Of a stretch of 38,223 nt of DNA, positions 8,273-37,769 are shown in pieces. The position numbers and the translations under genes were made by a program. How positions within the stretch are numbered: position 1 is the first letter of the stretch; every line of letters begins with the position of its first letter. Origin of the DNA: a virus; IMG/VR virus record IMGVR_UViG_3300013006_002411, positions 1-38,223 of that record; one strand, given 5' to 3'. The notes beneath the pieces were generated by a model, which worked only from the letters and a program-made list of their open reading frames with translations, was not told the DNA's origin and made no database searches.

Positions 8273-10456
8273 CTAGCGAAGCACAGTACCCTGACCAATA
8301 CCGCGCTGCTGCTGACGGCGTAGTGTCTCCTGGAAGTCGAGTGCAGGGATCGGCGGACTACGCATAACGCTGTTGTTCTGGTTGCGCAGGTTGGTAGAGA
8401 TATTCTTCAGCACATCGAGCTGCTGATTACCTTGCTCGATCATCTTGTCATATTTCTCACGCTGCTCGATAGCTCCCTGAGCATCATCACTAAAGAAGTG
8501 CATGAGATTGGCAAGCATTCCTCCGAGATGATCGTCAAAAGAGCGGCCTGTGTCAGTATGAAGATAGCCCCACCTGACTGCTGAGCCGATGCCATAGCCT
8601 GCGAGTCCGGCTCCGGCTACGCCTGCAGCAGTTGTGCCCAGACCAGCAGCTCCCGCGCCAAGGCCCACACGTGCGGCCAAAACACCACCCAATCCGCCAG
8701 CAGCGCCCCCAACTCCTCCGGTGATCATCTTCACGCCACTAGAGGCCAGAGCCGCCCCACCTAGGGCACCCACTGCCAGAGCAGTACTATATGCTACCTT
8801 AGTGAGAGTCTGGTGACCTTCCATGAGTTTGGTGGCACTATCTTCCAGGCCACCAAGTGATTTAGACACATCGTCATAGAGATTATTGCGCCCATTCTGC
8901 CATTCATTCTCTACGCCCTGAGCCTTCGAGAACTCAAACTGATTGAGGAACTGGGTGCCTTCACCTGTCGCACCCTTGGAGTCGCCGATCTCACCTTGAA
9001 TGCGCGGGAAGTCGCCGGACATCATGGAGTTTGAGAGCGCGGCATAGCCCATGCGCGACTCTTGGTTATGGAAGAACTCACCCCATTTGGTGTGCATCGA
9101 GATCTGCATCATTTTCTCAAGGTTCTCTTGCTGAGCCTTGAGAGATGCATCATCCTGATTTGGAAGTGCCTTGAGCTTCTTCTGCTCGGCGACGAGCTGC
9201 TGATAGCCATGCTGCTTGCTCAGTTCCCGATTGATCAGCATATAGGCTGCATCATCGACATCGATCCCTTTGCGCTGCATCTGTAGATAGTATGCATTCA
9301 CATCAAAGCGTTTCGTCGGATTGCGCTTGCCTACAGCCTTAACAGGATCACCAGGCTCGACCTCGACAGCCTGAGCAGCCATTCGTGCGAAGTGCTGAGA
9401 CGCAAAGAGCGAATGCATCTGTTTGATATTGGTTGCGGCTTCACCCGTCGTACCTGCGGTATTCATGCCCACTTCAAGCTCAGCCAGCACATCACGCAGA
9501 CCTGACAAACCGATCTTACCTGCACCCATAGCATCCGGAAGCACTTCCGGCAGGAAGCGGGCGGCATCTTGAGCATGGAAACGCCCAGTAGAGCCAGCCT
9601 TGAAGACCATATCATAGCCTTTCTGGATGCCTTCAGGCGTGGTGATGCCCATTTGGCGGAAAGACGTCTGCAGAGCAGCTGCTTCAGCAGGTTCTGCACC
9701 CGAAGCAGAGGCGAACTGGAGTGTCTGGCCGAGAGCACTTTTAAAGACAGTAGCATTCGATAGCCCGTTTTTATCGGTTCCGGTGGGAGAATAAAGTCCT
9801 GACCGGATTAATGCCTTAGCTGCTTCTTCGCCATTCTCAAGCGACATCCCAGGCGCAGATCGAGTGGCTTCAAGGATCTGCTGTTGCAGAGTGTGTGCGT
9901 AGCCGACGCGGGCGGTCATCGGGAGATTGGACTTCTCTGTGAAAGTCAGCGCATCGTAGGCTAGCGACTTATTATAGGCCCGTGCCCGCTCAAGCGGATC
10001 CTTGATGACCTCGCCAGCCGCATATAAGCCAGCACCTGCACTGACCGCCTTATTCAGGACATGGCCAGCCATCTGCTTCCAATTGCGTGCTGCCTTCTCA
10101 GTATTGCGAGCGATCTCCTGAGAGTCTCGCGCAGCTTTGCTCATACCAGATCCAGCGATTGCAGCTTTGAGAGATTGTGCCTGCTTGGCAGACTCAGCCA
10201 TATGCTGCTCAAGAAGCTGGCCATTACGCTGGGTTGCATCCAAGAGTCGAGAAAGCATTCCAGTCTGATTCACCTGCTCGCGCAGTGTGCTGGTGACCTG
10301 CTGACCCTGCTGAATGATCTTGCCTGTAACTTGAGCCGAGAGACCGAGCTGCTCGTTGACCTTTTTCGTCAGGCTGATCTGATCGATCCCGATATCATGG
10401 ATCTTCTGCGCGGCATCTCCGGTCAGATTTAATCGCAGTGTGACTGTGTTACTCAT
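8273..10456 (-). CDS. Tail tape measure protein (Mu gp42-like)
   Basis: A 727-aa protein, the longest gene of the tail cluster, in the tape measure position between the chaperone pair and N. I start it at MSNTVTLRLNLTGDAAQKI, preceded by GGAG with proper spacing; upstream in-frame ATGs lie next to or inside a terminator hairpin and are unlikely. The N-terminal 120 residues are a long coiled coil rich in Gln/Lys/Ala. The phage tape measure core (residues about 170-430) has conserved AAKALIRSGLY, TSFRQMGIT and VLPDAMGAGKIGLSGLRDVLAELEV-type blocks. A Gly/Ala-rich hydrophobic stretch at about 590-640 may form membrane-inserting helices. It sets tail length and probably enters the cell during DNA ejection. 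Confidence 0.88.
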   Translation of the reverse strand: MSNTVTLRLNLTGDAAQKIHDIGIDQISLTKKVNEQLGLSAQVTGKIIQQGQQVTSTLREQVNQTGMLSRLLDATQRNGQLLEQHMAESAKQAQSLKAAIAGSGMSKAARDSQEIARNTEKAARNWKQMAGHVLNKAVSAGAGLYAAGEVIKDPLERARAYNKSLAYDALTFTEKSNLPMTARVGYAHTLQQQILEATRSAPGMSLENGEEAAKALIRSGLYSPTGTDKNGLSNATVFKSALGQTLQFASASGAEPAEAAALQTSFRQMGITTPEGIQKGYDMVFKAGSTGRFHAQDAARFLPEVLPDAMGAGKIGLSGLRDVLAELEVGMNTAGTTGEAATNIKQMHSLFASQHFARMAAQAVEVEPGDPVKAVGKRNPTKRFDVNAYYLQMQRKGIDVDDAAYMLINRELSKQHGYQQLVAEQKKLKALPNQDDASLKAQQENLEKMMQISMHTKWGEFFHNQESRMGYAALSNSMMSGDFPRIQGEIGDSKGATGEGTQFLNQFEFSKAQGVENEWQNGRNNLYDDVSKSLGGLEDSATKLMEGHQTLTKVAYSTALAVGALGGAALASSGVKMITGGVGGAAGGLGGVLAARVGLGAGAAGLGTTAAGVAGAGLAGYGIGSAVRWGYLHTDTGRSFDDHLGGMLANLMHFFSDDAQGAIEQREKYDKMIEQGNQQLDVLKNISTNLRNQNNSVMRSPPIPALDFQETLRRQQQRGIGQGTVLR

Positions 10457-34038: not shown

Positions 34039-34314
34039 ATGTCACGCAAGAACTTCATCAAAGCCATCGCAGACAGCGAGGAAATCACACAGGCCAAGGC
34101 CGAAGCGATCCTCAAGACCATTGAAGGTCTGTACGTCTCCGAGCTTAAGGCTCACGGTGAGCACACCATCGCTGGTGTAGGCAAACTCAAACTGAAGCAA
34201 AAGCCAGAGCGCCCCGGTCGCAATCCCAAGACCGGTGAAGCCATCACCATCGCCCCATCCACCAGCGTCTCCTTCGTGATCGCCAAACCACTCAAGGAGG
34301 CCCTCAATGGATAA
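34039..34314 (+). CDS. HU/IHF-family DNA-binding protein
   Basis: A 91-aa HU-type protein. It has the normal MSRKNFIKAIADSEEITQAKAEAIL helix pair (given as IADSEEITQAKAEAIL) and the conserved DNA-arm signature GRNPKTGEAI at about residues 62-71, followed by VSFVIAKPLKEAL. It would bend DNA as a dimer. Mu transposition uses host HU and IHF, and a phage copy may make this step less dependent on the host. It overlaps the start of the acb2-like gene by 8 bases. Confidence 0.9.
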   Translation: MSRKNFIKAIADSEEITQAKAEAILKTIEGLYVSELKAHGEHTIAGVGKLKLKQKPERPGRNPKTGEAITIAPSTSVSFVIAKPLKEALNG

Positions 34315-34531
34315 CCAGCACCAGAAGATCAAGGGCTATCGCGATCTGAATCAGAACCAGATCGATCTGATGAACCAGATCAAAGAGATGGGCGAGCGTG
34401 TCAGAGAGCTGGTTCAAGATATCGCCAGCTCCGGTTCTGTCGATCAACGCTGGGTTCATATCGGGATGACTGATCTGCAAAAAGGCTTTATGTCCCTCAC
34501 ACGTAGCATTGCCCAACCCACCACCTTCTAA
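34307..34531 (+). CDS. acb2: Probable Acb2 anti-CBASS cyclic nucleotide sponge
   Basis: A 74-aa helical protein matching the Acb2 pattern known from Pseudomonas and Mu-like phages: KGYRDLNQNQIDLMNQIK at the start, then DQRWVHIGMTDLQKGFMSLTRSIAQP. The two residues that I recall as ligand-binding in Acb2, Y11 and K26, fall at exactly those positions here. Acb2 forms a hexamer that binds cyclic di- and trinucleotides and so keeps CBASS effectors inactive. The start has GGAGG six bases upstream and overlaps the HU gene. A hammerhead ribozyme begins right after the stop. Certainty comes from sequence memory, not from a search. Confidence 0.75.
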   Translation: MDNQHQKIKGYRDLNQNQIDLMNQIKEMGERVRELVQDIASSGSVDQRWVHIGMTDLQKGFMSLTRSIAQPTTF

Positions 34532-34594
34532 GCGAAACATGCGCCCCGGCGCATGTCTGCCGAGCGTAGTGGCCCGGCACTGATGAGCAGCTAA
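34532..34594 (+). ncRNA. Type II hammerhead ribozyme, copy 1
   Basis: All hammerhead core elements appear in type II order: GAAA (34534-34537), stem III ACATGCGC/GCGCATGT (34537-34544 with 34549-34556, 8 perfect pairs, loop CCCG), the cleavage triplet GTC ending at C34557, stem I TGCCG/CGGCA (34558-34562 with 34575-34579, extended by two pairs after a mismatch), and CTGATGA (34580-34586). The G-C closing pair of stem II follows, but only two Watson-Crick pairs of stem II are seen. The loop of stem I (GTAG) can pair three bases with CTA downstream. It sits on the sense strand right after the acb2 stop. Confidence 0.85.
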
Positions 34595-34608
34595 ACAGGA
34601 GCAAATCC

Positions 34609-34824
34609 ATGCCAAGAGAATTTACCAAACCAGAACTGAGAATGATCGCACAGCACTGTGATGCAGAAATAAAGCTCTGGACTGCAGCTAAGGCTAAACC
34701 CTTCATTGACCAGTTCGACCACAACTTTGAGTTGGTCAAGCACCTACTTGTGGAGCTGGCCAAGTCGCGTAAAGAGATTTCGACACTTAACCGAAGCCTC
34801 CGCAAGCGAAACACGACGCAATGA
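34609..34824 (+). CDS. Small helical protein between two ribozymes
   Basis: A 71-aa protein that I do not recognise. It is charged and helical throughout (LRMIAQHCDAEIKLW, FELVKHLLVELAKSRKEI) with a basic end. It has AGGAG nine bases before the ATG, after ribozyme 1. The last codons and the TGA lie inside stem III of ribozyme 2, so the end of the gene is also ribozyme sequence. Cleavage at both ribozymes would release a 275-base RNA that carries just this gene. Its neighbour acb2 suggests, but does not show, a counter-defence role. Confidence 0.6.
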   Translation: MPREFTKPELRMIAQHCDAEIKLWTAAKAKPFIDQFDHNFELVKHLLVELAKSRKEISTLNRSLRKRNTTQ

Positions 34825-34869
34825 CGCGTGTCTGCCAGGCTTAGTTGCCCGGCACTGATGAGCAGCTAA
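34806..34869 (+). ncRNA. Type II hammerhead ribozyme, copy 2
   Basis: A second copy with the same order: GAAA (34808-34811), stem III ACACG-a-CG/CGCGTGT (34811-34818 with 34825-34831, one bulge), GTC ending at C34832, stem I TGCC-a-GGC with GCC-c-GGCA (34833-34854), CTGATGA (34855-34861) and GCAGCTAA. Stems differ in sequence from copy 1 but keep pairing, while core bases are identical. The stem I loop TTAG can pair with CTAA just downstream. Stem II is again short. Confidence 0.83.
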
Positions 34870-34887
34870 TCAATACAGGAGAACATC

Positions 34888-35298
34888 ATGACCGATCTCA
34901 TAGAAATACCACAGATCAAATTCAAGATCACATGGCGTGAAAAGCACGTAGTACAAGGGGATGAGGATGATTTTGAAATGTGGCGTAAGTCCGAAATTTT
35001 CTTGGCCACTGACGAAGATGCCGCAGAGGCACTCTGGGCTGAAAAATACGCCCACCGCGCCATCAATGGTGAACTGTACGACATCGAAGAAGTATTCGAT
35101 GAGAGCGATACCGAAGACCCTAAAAAGATTTCGTTCCGAGTAACTCCTCGGCCAGCAGCACTTTGCGGAATCTATAGCGACTTGCCCGAGCTGCTCTGGC
35201 ACATCCAACGCCAGGACGGTGCAGTCGTAGCGTTTTTCCGCTATGAGACGGATGCCGAACTGTGTGCCACTGCGCTGAATACCGCGACAGGGAGCTAA
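34888..35298 (+). CDS. Unknown acidic protein after ribozyme 2
   Basis: A 136-aa acidic protein without a recognised family. It has two regions that look related to DNA- or protein-binding beta/alpha folds: IEIPQIKFKITWREKHVVQG, and a C-terminal YSDLPELLWHIQRQDGAVVAFF. There is no membrane helix. The start has AGGAG nine bases before it, downstream of ribozyme 2, so its mRNA would begin with the 3' fragment of that ribozyme if cut. Highly charged acidic small proteins in this accessory zone are sometimes DNA mimics; this is only a possibility. Confidence 0.6.
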   Translation: MTDLIEIPQIKFKITWREKHVVQGDEDDFEMWRKSEIFLATDEDAAEALWAEKYAHRAINGELYDIEEVFDESDTEDPKKISFRVTPRPAALCGIYSDLPELLWHIQRQDGAVVAFFRYETDAELCATALNTATGS

Positions 35299-35301
35299 GC
35301 C

Positions 35302-35739
35302 ATGAGTACATCACCACAGACCAAAACACTCACCCTCGGCCCTGAAGTCAATTTCTGGGATGGCATTCTGCAATTGGCGCAAGCTGCAATGCAGGCCGCT
35401 CATGATCAGGTCTCATTTACTAAAAAGCTCATCTCTGAAGATGGCAGACTTGAAGTCGAGTACAGCGCCACGGTTCGCATCATCAGCATGACGAAAAGCA
35501 CTCCTCATGGTGCGACGATTACCCGGATGACAACGCCCGAGCAGGATCTCATCGGTCTTCTAACCACGCTAAGTGGTATGGGTGGCTTTCGTATGTACCG
35601 TGCTTTTATGTCTAGCCAAGGTAGCGAGCAATACATCATCTCTGATGGAGATGACAACATGATCGCCTTCGCTGAAAACCCTCTAGCTGCGCTTGTTGCA
35701 GCCGTTCGCAAGATCGAAGCGCAACAAGAGGAGGCTTAA
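35302..35739 (+). CDS. Unknown protein
   Basis: A 145-aa protein, three bases after the preceding stop. It is mixed alpha/beta: an N-terminal helix (FWDGILQLAQAAMQAAHDQV), strands ending RLEVEYSATVRIIS, and a C-terminal helix AENPLAALVAAVRKIE. No motif is recognised. It lies in the accessory block downstream of the ribozymes, in the same direction and tightly packed. Confidence 0.55.
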   Translation: MSTSPQTKTLTLGPEVNFWDGILQLAQAAMQAAHDQVSFTKKLISEDGRLEVEYSATVRIISMTKSTPHGATITRMTTPEQDLIGLLTTLSGMGGFRMYRAFMSSQGSEQYIISDGDDNMIAFAENPLAALVAAVRKIEAQQEEA

Positions 35740-35741
35740 GC

Positions 35742-36050
35742 ATGTCACTCCAACACCTCATGGATCAACTAGCTGCCAAAGACCGCCGCATTGCCGAGCT
35801 TGAGGCGGTGACCCCTTCGGCATTGAAAGAAAAGCTCCGGTCTGCAGAAGATTACATCAAGGAACTTGAGATCGACAGAGCCAAGCTCAACGAAATCAAA
35901 CAGCACATCTGGGATTATTTCAAAGCCCTTGACGACCGTGAACATGGTGGCATGGCTCAAGAAAGTGCGTTCTGTTACATCAAAAAAACGCTCGGTATGT
36001 ACTGGCATAGCGGCATAACCAAAGCTCAGGAGAATCCCTATGTCTCTTGA
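35742..36050 (+). CDS. Unknown coiled-coil protein
   Basis: A 102-aa protein. A coiled coil covers about residues 2-55 (LMDQLAAKDRRIAELEAV, and LRSAEDYIKELEIDRAKL), then a short globular end (WDYFKALDDREHGGM and a C-terminal part with YIKKTL). No family recognised. Its stop lies inside a tiny overlapping frame that continues the same transcript. Confidence 0.55.
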   Translation: MSLQHLMDQLAAKDRRIAELEAVTPSALKEKLRSAEDYIKELEIDRAKLNEIKQHIWDYFKALDDREHGGMAQESAFCYIKKTLGMYWHSGITKAQENPYVS

Positions 36051-36084
36051 TCGTGATGACATCCTGCGCATTGAGGGAGCCTAA
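36040..36084 (+). CDS. 14-codon frame, possible gene remnant
   Basis: MSLDRDDILRIEGA, with AGGAG seven bases upstream, overlapping the end of the coiled-coil gene and ending two bases before the next ATG. Many phages have a small protein that starts in a similar way (x-R-D-D-I-I-R-x-A), so this could be a leftover of such a gene or a short leader for coupled translation of the next one. Confidence 0.25.
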   Translation: MSLDRDDILRIEGA

Positions 36085-36086
36085 CC

Positions 36087-37064
36087 ATGCTCTCCAACAG
36101 AAAGCCAGATCCAGCCGATATCGAAGCCAAGCTCAAAGAGTACGGCTTTGTCGAGTTTTTCGAGAGCGTCAAGACCATGCATCCGCATGAGCTCGACCGC
36201 TTCGGCTTGGGTCGGCCTTTTGTTGATCTCCCAGACATGCATTTGAGCCGCAAGGCCGCACTGATTAAAGAATTAGAAGACTGGGTGAACCTCACACCAG
36301 TCCACATCGCCCGAACAGAGATGTACAAGACCCGGATAGCCCGGAATATCGTGGTAGAGCGCCTGATCTGGTCAGCTCCGATTGATTCTCAGATCATCAT
36401 CTCGCTTGGAGAGGCTGGTTTTGCGACTGCACGCGTGCGTCAGATCCTGCCTGAAGACGGCACACTGATTGTCGATGCCATCCATGAAGGCAAGACCTAT
36501 ATAGCTCACGAGATCACTGTCCTAGATATCCATACGCTGCCTGCATACACACCATCACCCAGACTCAATCGCAAGAGCGGTATCGCCAGCCATCAAGCCG
36601 ACTTTAATGAGCTGAATAAGCGCCCATCCGTCAGCATTCTCAAGACCCATCCAATGGATCTGGCCGACCTACGCTTTTTCTACGGTCAATTCATCAACAG
36701 GATGCGTGCCACAGCGCCCCTCATGCAAAAAAAGTACCCCACTGGATCACGCATCAAGATCTGGGGTGGCCTCATCACCAGAAAGGCCGTCATCACCTCC
36801 GATGTTGGCGAAAAATTCGAGATCCCCGTTGGCGAACAACAGATCGATGCCACGGTACTCATGACCGACGGACTCGGACGCCTCACCGTTGACTATATAT
36901 ACCAAGGCGCAAGCCAAACCAAAACCATCGAATTTGAAGAGGTCGTCGGCTGCGACAGCATCAGCCCGCACGAGCTCGCACACACCATCACCCTCGAAAC
37001 CGTCAAGACTTTCTACCGTAAAAAGCGGTGGGAGATGAACAAACGCCAGGAGACCAGCCAATGA
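36087..37064 (+). CDS. Unknown protein with two similar beta domains
   Basis: A 325-aa protein with no recognised family, the largest unknown gene of the right half. After an N-terminal helical part (DIEAKLKEYGFVEFFESVK) there are two segments with a similar strand order: about residues 98-150 (IISLGEAGFATARVRQILPE and IVDAIHEGKTYIAHEITVLD) and about 235-295 (IPVGEQQIDATVLMTDG and TVDYIYQGASQTKTIEFEE). This suggests an internal duplication. It could be a nucleic-acid-binding or structural accessory protein. Neighbours are early/middle genes, and the 3' end overlaps the next gene as ATGA. Confidence 0.55.
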   Translation: MLSNRKPDPADIEAKLKEYGFVEFFESVKTMHPHELDRFGLGRPFVDLPDMHLSRKAALIKELEDWVNLTPVHIARTEMYKTRIARNIVVERLIWSAPIDSQIIISLGEAGFATARVRQILPEDGTLIVDAIHEGKTYIAHEITVLDIHTLPAYTPSPRLNRKSGIASHQADFNELNKRPSVSILKTHPMDLADLRFFYGQFINRMRATAPLMQKKYPTGSRIKIWGGLITRKAVITSDVGEKFEIPVGEQQIDATVLMTDGLGRLTVDYIYQGASQTKTIEFEEVVGCDSISPHELAHTITLETVKTFYRKKRWEMNKRQETSQ

Positions 37065-37340: not shown

Positions 37341-37769
37341 ATGACCCAACGCAATCGCACCATACAACTGATCCACGTCGCCCGCCGCGAGCTCAATCTG
37401 GACGAAGATACATACCGCAGCCTGATCGAGCAGACCACTGGCAAAGAATCGCTCAAAGAGTTGACCATTCCCCAGCTCACCGCCGTGCTCGACCGTATGA
37501 AAGCCAGCGGCTTTAAGGTCAGAACCAAGCGCCCGCAAGACGTGGCGCTTGCCAGTGACGACCAATCCAAGAAGATTCGCGCCCTCTGGCTTCACCTACA
37601 CACCCATGGTGAGGTCAAGAATCCATCCGAGCGGGCACTGCTGGCCTACGTTGAGCGTCAGACTCACGTCAGCGCACTCCATTTCCTGAGCAGCACCAAC
37701 GCGAGCAAGGTCATCGAACGCCTCAAGAAGTGGTGCGAACGTAAAGATATCCCCCTCTTCGACGCCTAA
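37341..37769 (+). CDS. gemA: GemA regulatory protein, Mu gp16 family (DUF1018)
   Basis: A 142-aa protein of the Mu GemA/DUF1018 family. It has IQLIHVARRELNLDEDTYRSLI at the start, then LTIPQLTAVLDRMKASGF, and ends with a helical domain SDDQSKKIRALWLHLHTHGEV. In Mu, GemA modifies host gene expression, DNA supercoiling and replication control. It sits right before mor, the normal Mu order of late-early genes. Confidence 0.9.
   Translation: MTQRNRTIQLIHVARRELNLDEDTYRSLIEQTTGKESLKELTIPQLTAVLDRMKASGFKVRTKRPQDVALASDDQSKKIRALWLHLHTHGEVKNPSERALLAYVERQTHVSALHFLSSTNASKVIERLKKWCERKDIPLFDA

Follow-up and report, generated by a model that had tools for sequence, protein, structure and literature searches.

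Introduction

Much of what is needed to interpret the locus described here has been in the literature since 2011: the type II class of hammerhead ribozyme, its tandem arrangement around single phage genes, its pseudoknot and the idea that it processes transcripts are already published (Perreault et al., 2011; PMC3088659). In ribozymes of this class the pseudoknot joins loop I to the 3′ tail, and a stem II of two base pairs is common. Tandem phage hammerheads cleave in vitro, an Agrobacterium set cleaves in E. coli, and processing into single-gene mRNAs has been proposed for the clustered hammerheads of prophages (PMC3088659). Phage hammerheads flank small, non-conserved ORFs, and what purpose hammerheads serve in bacterial and phage genomes has yet to be settled (PMC6155905).

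Here we describe two type II hammerheads, HHR1 and HHR2, in a window of 38,223 nucleotides that comprises the viral record IMGVR_UViG_3300013006_002411. A sequence-only reading of this DNA had regarded a tandem pair around one gene as unusual; such pairs were reported for prophages in 2011, and we find them in about ten loci besides the window. We show where the ribozymes lie in relation to the genes of the early operon, how they vary among related phages, and what they may do for the transcript that carries them.

Results

When the whole window was searched with Rfam cmscan, HHR1 (67.2 bits, E=5.1e-12) and HHR2 (50.0 bits, E=1.7e-07) both matched RF02276, Hammerhead_II, whose curated threshold of 37 bits they exceed. 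Across 4,227 Rfam families these were the only two matches over the gathering score in the 38,223 bases. The pattern GCGAAAC-N13-43-GTCTGCC likewise occurs twice in the window, at HHR1 and HHR2, and 100 dinucleotide shuffles gave no instance of it. Each element contains the invariant core (CUGAUGA, GAAA, and GUC as the NUH before the cut) and has the architecture of the family, with loop-closed stems I and III and an open stem II. We believe that HHR1 and HHR2 are almost certainly type II hammerhead ribozymes. The covariance-model scores, both over the gathering score, bear out the identity given in the sequence-only reading, the coordinates of which (34532-34594 and 34806-34869) agree with the sequence, as do its core and stems. 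Members of the family cleave themselves after C17, leaving a 2′,3′-cyclic phosphate and a 5′-hydroxyl. The ribozymes and the genes around them are as follows.

34039-34314, + strand: gene for an HU-like DNA-binding protein (PF00216, E=1.5e-23)
34307-34531, + strand: acb2, homologue of the anti-CBASS sponge (PF24729, E=2.6e-16); its TAA stop adjoins HHR1
34530-34596, + strand: HHR1, type II hammerhead adjoining the acb2 stop codon; predicted cut after C34557
34532-34537, + strand: GCGAAA of HHR1, as read from the letters
34537-34556, + strand: stem III hairpin of HHR1, an A-U and seven further pairs, loop CCCG
34555-34557, + strand: GTC of HHR1, preceding the predicted cut
34558-34579, + strand: stem I hairpin of HHR1, loop GUAGUG (-11.3 kcal/mol, z -2.63)
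34580-34588, + strand: CTGATGAGC, core strand of HHR1 after stem I
34591-34593, + strand: tail CUA of HHR1, complementary to the UAG of loop I
34609-34824, + strand: 71-aa ORF between HHR1 and HHR2, Shine-Dalgarno AGGAG
34804-34871, + strand: HHR2, type II hammerhead; predicted cut after C34832
34806-34811, + strand: GCGAAA of HHR2, as read from the letters
34830-34832, + strand: GTC of HHR2, preceding the predicted cut
34833-34854, + strand: stem I of HHR2, as read from the letters
34855-34863, + strand: CTGATGAGC, the same core strand as in HHR1
34888-35298, + strand: 136-aa ORF 3′ of HHR2, ATG 55 nt past cut 2, Shine-Dalgarno AGGAG
37341-37769, + strand: GemA homologue (PF06252), a downstream landmark in nearly all related phages

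In both copies the strands run in the order GAAA, stem III, GUC, an eight-position stem I and CUGAUGAGC, and stem II consists of two pairs, made by the GC preceding GAAA with the GC following CUGAUGA. Stem III has eight pairs in HHR1 (A-U included) and seven with a bulged A in HHR2, and each stem I carries a single A.C mismatch, at pair 6 in HHR1 and at pair 5 in HHR2. The shifted mismatch, the bulge and the mere two canonical pairs of stem II had all been seen at first reading, as had a contact of loop I with CUAA that might compensate for the short stem II. This contact proves to be the known type II pseudoknot: the UAG of loop I is complementary to the CUA directly 3′ of stem II in both copies, and in HHR2 the loop UUAG and the tail CUAA can form four pairs. 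Folded as 34534-34557, stem III of HHR1 reaches -12.3 kcal/mol (z -3.55). The minimum-energy folds of the whole elements are not significantly stable (z -1.39 and -0.82), and that of HHR2 in isolation, in a model without pseudoknots, differs from the ribozyme fold; since the core is non-helical and pseudoknots lie outside the fold model, the energy of the whole element is uninformative.

Stronger evidence for the fold comes from related phages. The nearest relatives by transposase among viral contigs, L105 and L106 (62% identity), carry one Hammerhead_II each (57.4 and 55.3 bits, respectively). Compensatory changes were sought in an alignment with the L105 and L106 orthologues and in counts of stem I pairs over 44 loci, and were found. 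Relative to HHR1, the aligned sequences show three consecutive two-sided changes in stem III (U-A to C-G, G-C to A-U, C-G to G-C), several in stem I, for example at pair 7 (G-C to U-A or A-U), and one in the pseudoknot, where A-U becomes C-G (UAG/CUA to UCG/CGA). The core bases, the loss of which in relatives would have spoken against a hammerhead, are kept: L105 and L106 read CUGACGA, the sole change falling at the free position 7 of CUGANGA. A set of 48 distinct ribozymes, drawn from phages and prophages of many hosts, gives 144 cells for the three pseudoknot pairs; pairing holds in 138 of them, a value that none of 10,000 shuffles reaches (mean 129.5). The middle pair never fails (G-C in 40, A-U in 3, C-G in 3 and G-U in 2), and sliding the tail by 1-3 bases lowers pseudoknot pairing from 94% to 2-63%. 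Given that the differing helices of the relatives still pair and that the middle pair of the pseudoknot never fails, we conclude from these alignments that the hammerhead fold is under selection at the level of RNA, and that HHR1 and HHR2 are structured, selected RNAs with predicted cleavage. Covariation had previously been argued from the two window copies alone; between them it is modest, as their 3′ halves are nearly identical, and it is the relatives that make it convincing.

These comparisons also bear on whether the elements are ribozymes at all. Stems I and III would by themselves be stable intergenic hairpins, and a structured leader, an attenuator or a pair of RNA-stability hairpins might resemble a hammerhead by chance. 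However, the non-helical CUGANGA and GAAA are constant across the phages of many hosts while the helices vary, and the trinucleotide before the cut is GUC in nearly all. Furthermore, neither a promoter nor a terminator was found near the ribozymes on the + strand, where a terminator-like U tract is absent. We consider a chance resemblance of this kind extremely improbable.

Two variants were seen among the prophage copies. In a Collimonas antrihumi prophage (L077, 1501-1565) the loop GUCGCG and the tail GCGAC could form a pseudoknot of five pairs with a C-G middle pair, a compensated variant. In an Aeromonas rivuli prophage (L091, 899-973) an invariant position of the core CUGAUGA is altered in an otherwise well conserved Hammerhead_II (CAGAUGA), and a normal partner copy lies about 840 bp away; the changed element is possibly an inactive or unusual variant.

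The gene order of the window resembles that of transposable phages of the B3/phiSHP3 type. The earlier description of the phage as BcepMu-like was not confirmed, BcepMu itself lying outside the collection compared. The 71-aa ORF begins 51 nt past cut 1 and its stop lies 8 nt ahead of cut 2, while the AGGAG motifs of the 71-aa and 136-aa ORFs stand 3 nt and 8 nt, respectively, past the pseudoknot tails. Neither ORF belongs to a family in Pfam, PHROG or NCBIfam, and no relatives of either were found in viral contigs, which is consistent with the remark that the ORFs flanked by phage hammerheads are not conserved (PMC6155905). The status of the 71-aa ORF as a gene rests, in the absence of relatives, on its position, start signals and length. 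Between HHR2 and gemA (34888-37064) there are four consecutive early-operon ORFs, of 136, 145, 102 and 325 aa, with no match in the same three collections. The 5′ part of HHR2, GCGAAACACGACGCAATGA (34806-34824), also codes for the C-terminal end of the 71-aa ORF and its stop (RKRNTTQ-stop), and the stop codon itself, at 34822-34824, falls within loop III. As this part of the ribozyme is coding, a ribosome terminating there would occupy the core of the ribozyme.

A close fit between ribozyme and genes recurs elsewhere. In at least 29 of 50 non-redundant loci, a lower bound because the longest upstream ORF was taken, the upstream stop codon lies -5 to +1 nt from GCGAAA. The downstream start codon follows the cut at a median of 49.5 nt (range 35-92; 50 loci). 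In the 45 loci where a Shine-Dalgarno motif was found, it lies at a median of 4 nt past the pseudoknot tail, within 8 nt in 29 and touching or overlapping the tail in 9. The ribozyme exactly fills the gap between the stop of one gene and the Shine-Dalgarno of the next.

This placement raises the question of whether cleavage is regulated. Instead of cutting constitutively, the ribozyme could act as a switch: a ribosome that ends translation of the upstream gene would cover the GAAA core and stem III and delay cutting, so that the transcript would stay whole under heavy translation and be cut otherwise. In most loci the stop codon adjoins the ribozyme or lies inside it, as in loop III of HHR2, which would suit such coupling, as would the Shine-Dalgarno motifs that adjoin or overlap the pseudoknot tail. 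However, compact phage operons place any intercistronic element by stop codons, and position alone is no proof of coupling. We consider a switch unlikely.

Most of the ribozymes that we found sit in a Mu-like early operon, upstream of gemA. Their flanking genes are diverse (HU, Acb2, DUF3164, DUF2786, zinc-ribbon-like proteins and many small proteins of no known family), and it is therefore the site and the RNA that are conserved and not the cargo. The HU gene recurs just 5′ of the ribozyme in several related phages. L105 has the order of the window, that is, an HU gene, an Acb2 homologue (PF24729, 44% identical to that of the window) and a ribozyme adjoining the acb2 stop; in L106 another ORF takes the place of acb2, and the ribozyme is kept at the same site after HU. 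The slot after HU thus holds acb2 in L105 (15099-15383) and an unrelated 151-aa ORF in L106 (15186-15641), with the orthologous ribozyme directly 3′ of each. From this synteny, the site after HU appears to be a slot for cargo swaps, with the ribozyme as its boundary. A blastn search of the region against phage records gave only short matches near the start of the query, on its acb2 side, with the ribozymes unmatched.

Two ribozymes lie on one strand within 2.6 kb of each other in 5 of 16 virus records; at least 6 more genomes show the same, two of these being duplicates of a virus record. Where pairs were analysed, the RNA from one cut to the next measures 275-1190 nt and holds at least one complete ORF, the start of which lies 44-78 nt past cut 1, with one exception at 25 nt that has no Shine-Dalgarno motif. 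In most pairs the stop of the last ORF is at or just ahead of the second ribozyme.

The recurrence of twins bears on the proposal that HHR2 is a selfish or neutral passenger, a recent and degenerating duplicate of HHR1 with little effect. HHR1 and HHR2 share the UAG/CUA pseudoknot as well as the near-identical 3′ half, HHR2 scores 50 bits against 67 and has a bulged stem III, both stems I carry an A.C mismatch, and the closest relatives have one ribozyme and not two. Yet HHR2 retains every core base and a possible four-pair pseudoknot, and twins recur in many unrelated phages with differing genes between them. A passenger seems to us decidedly unlikely.

A pair of cuts might also yield a circle, in which the RNA between them is joined and carries the 71-aa ORF. 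Ends consisting of a 5′-hydroxyl and a 2′,3′-cyclic phosphate can be ligated. The joining could be done by a host RtcB ligase, or it could be the reverse reaction of a hammerhead assembled from the 5′ half of HHR2 together with the 3′ half of HHR1. The released RNA would hold both halves around its ends and could form a complete hammerhead, because the halves of a type II ribozyme are self-contained hairpins joined by the two stem II pairs only. Nevertheless, spliced or circular products of tandem hammerheads were sought by Perreault et al. and none were found (PMC3088659). We regard circularisation as very unlikely, and the idea that the phage expresses a 71-aa protein, encoded beside its anti-CBASS gene, from a circular mRNA of 275 nt as more improbable still.

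The distribution of the ribozyme was surveyed with a DNA pattern of its 3′ half, which identified 16 viral contigs and 21 stretches of bacterial genomes; RF02276 was confirmed in every one of the 16 virus records and in 16 of 18 genomes. Among the 18 ribozyme-bearing virus records, a set that includes the window and the record of locus L044, 16 carry a same-strand GemA gene (PF06252) no more than about 2.8 kb downstream, 12 have DUF3164, and 7 have HU (PF00216), usually ending directly ahead of the ribozyme. In GenBank, 76 Pseudomonas records match, including the transposable phages DMS3, D3112, JBD30, JBD26 and MP22, and the ribozyme is also present in RcapMu, Chromohalobacter YPCBV-1, Alteromonadaceae B23 and Vibrio martha 12B12. 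In every GenBank record inspected it belongs to the early operon, 5′ of GemA, and carries no annotation. Mu, B3 and phiSHP3 have no Hammerhead_II, which indicates that the operon can work without it. The 3′ half was unmatched in E. coli genomes, and 3 of 369 gammaproteobacterial genomes scored above the cut-off, one of them being the centre genome, chosen for having ribozymes; the ribozyme is thus rare outside particular phages.

Some of the genes beside these ribozymes deserve mention. A small zinc-ribbon-like protein (CxxC...WP.D...CKAC) recurs directly 3′ of the ribozyme in phages of Vibrio, Shewanella and Halomonas (L076, L082, L098, L025 and L036), and the two members searched against Pfam (L076 and L036) had no match. 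In DMS3 (L094, 2971-3044 and 3044-3339), the annotation of gene 17 starts at record position 9136, and an in-frame ORF of 98 aa has its ATG about 39 nt past the predicted cut and about 113 nt upstream of the annotated start; judging by this reading frame, the annotated start is probably too late. In D3112 (L095, 3044-3200) a difference of 1 nt from DMS3 just after the start codon breaks the corresponding ORF (50 versus 98 aa), owing to either a sequencing error or a real frameshift.

Discussion

Based on these observations, we propose a model for the twin ribozymes. As the early transcript of this Mu-like phage is made, each ribozyme would fold and cut itself, after C34557 and C34832. The upstream product would be an mRNA ending with acb2 and capped at its 3′ end by the stem III hairpin of HHR1; the middle product would be a monocistronic mRNA of 275 nt, with the 71-aa ORF and its own Shine-Dalgarno and stop; and the downstream product would start 55 nt ahead of the 136-aa gene. 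Stem I would form the 5′ end of each product that lies downstream of a cut, and that end would be a hydroxyl. Hairpin-capped ends and a 5′-hydroxyl should slow both 3′ exonucleases and the 5′-end-dependent attack of RNase E. One operon transcript would then give pieces that are separately stable and separately translated, and cargo genes could be exchanged without effect on their neighbours.

We think it likely that the ribozymes cut the early mRNA co-transcriptionally into monocistronic units with hairpin-capped ends. The identity, structure, conservation and position of the elements, all read from sequence, lead us to infer cleavage and its effects on mRNA stability and expression. The most likely benefit would be independent stability and expression of exchangeable genes within one operon. 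Points that count against this model are the weakness of HHR2, with its bulged stem III and a minimum-energy fold in isolation that differs from the ribozyme fold, the patchy occurrence of the ribozyme across Mu-like phages, and the lack of relatives of the 71-aa ORF. The main rivals to co-transcriptional processing are translation-coupled regulation and a passive passenger, with circularisation a further possibility.

Taken together, the locus and its relatives show a rule: 5′ of gemA, among the freely exchanged genes of Mu-like early operons, the ribozyme takes the exact place of the intercistronic gap. In the open-licence literature we found no paper describing hammerheads in Mu-like phages or DMS3, nor a description of this regular placement, of the association with acb2 that two phages share at a syntenic site, or of the ribozyme in laboratory phages of the DMS3 type; published RNA-seq of the B3-like phage Fc02 makes no mention of ribozymes (PMC9936078). 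Since an unannotated ribozyme is present in widely used laboratory phages (DMS3 and D3112), the role of phage hammerheads can be tested by inactivation in a genetic model system.

HHR1 and HHR2 share with RF02276 (Perreault et al., 2011; PMC3088659) the core, the strand order, closed stems I and III, a two-pair stem II and the pseudoknot between loop I and tail. They differ from its consensus in the pseudoknot (UAG/CUA versus UGG/CCA), the A.C mismatch in each stem I and the stem III bulge of HHR2, all of which is normal variation. Like the clustered prophage hammerheads (Perreault et al., 2011, Figure 3; PMC6155905), they lie close to each other in a phage early operon, on the strand of the genes, and enclose a small ORF that is not conserved. 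In contrast to those of Perreault, which flank other genes such as ardA, the pair in the window neighbours acb2 and is set in the HU-to-gemA interval of Mu-like phages. DMS3, D3112, JBD30, RcapMu, YPCBV-1, B23 and martha 12B12 carry the same family on the coding strand in a similar position upstream of gemA, but theirs are single whereas those of the window are twin. Retrozymes and viroid-like circular RNAs likewise use two hammerheads to delimit an RNA of unit length. However, these are of types I and III, circular and replicating, whereas the twin ribozymes described here lie in the operon of a DNA phage with an ORF between them, where the sequence would permit a circle.
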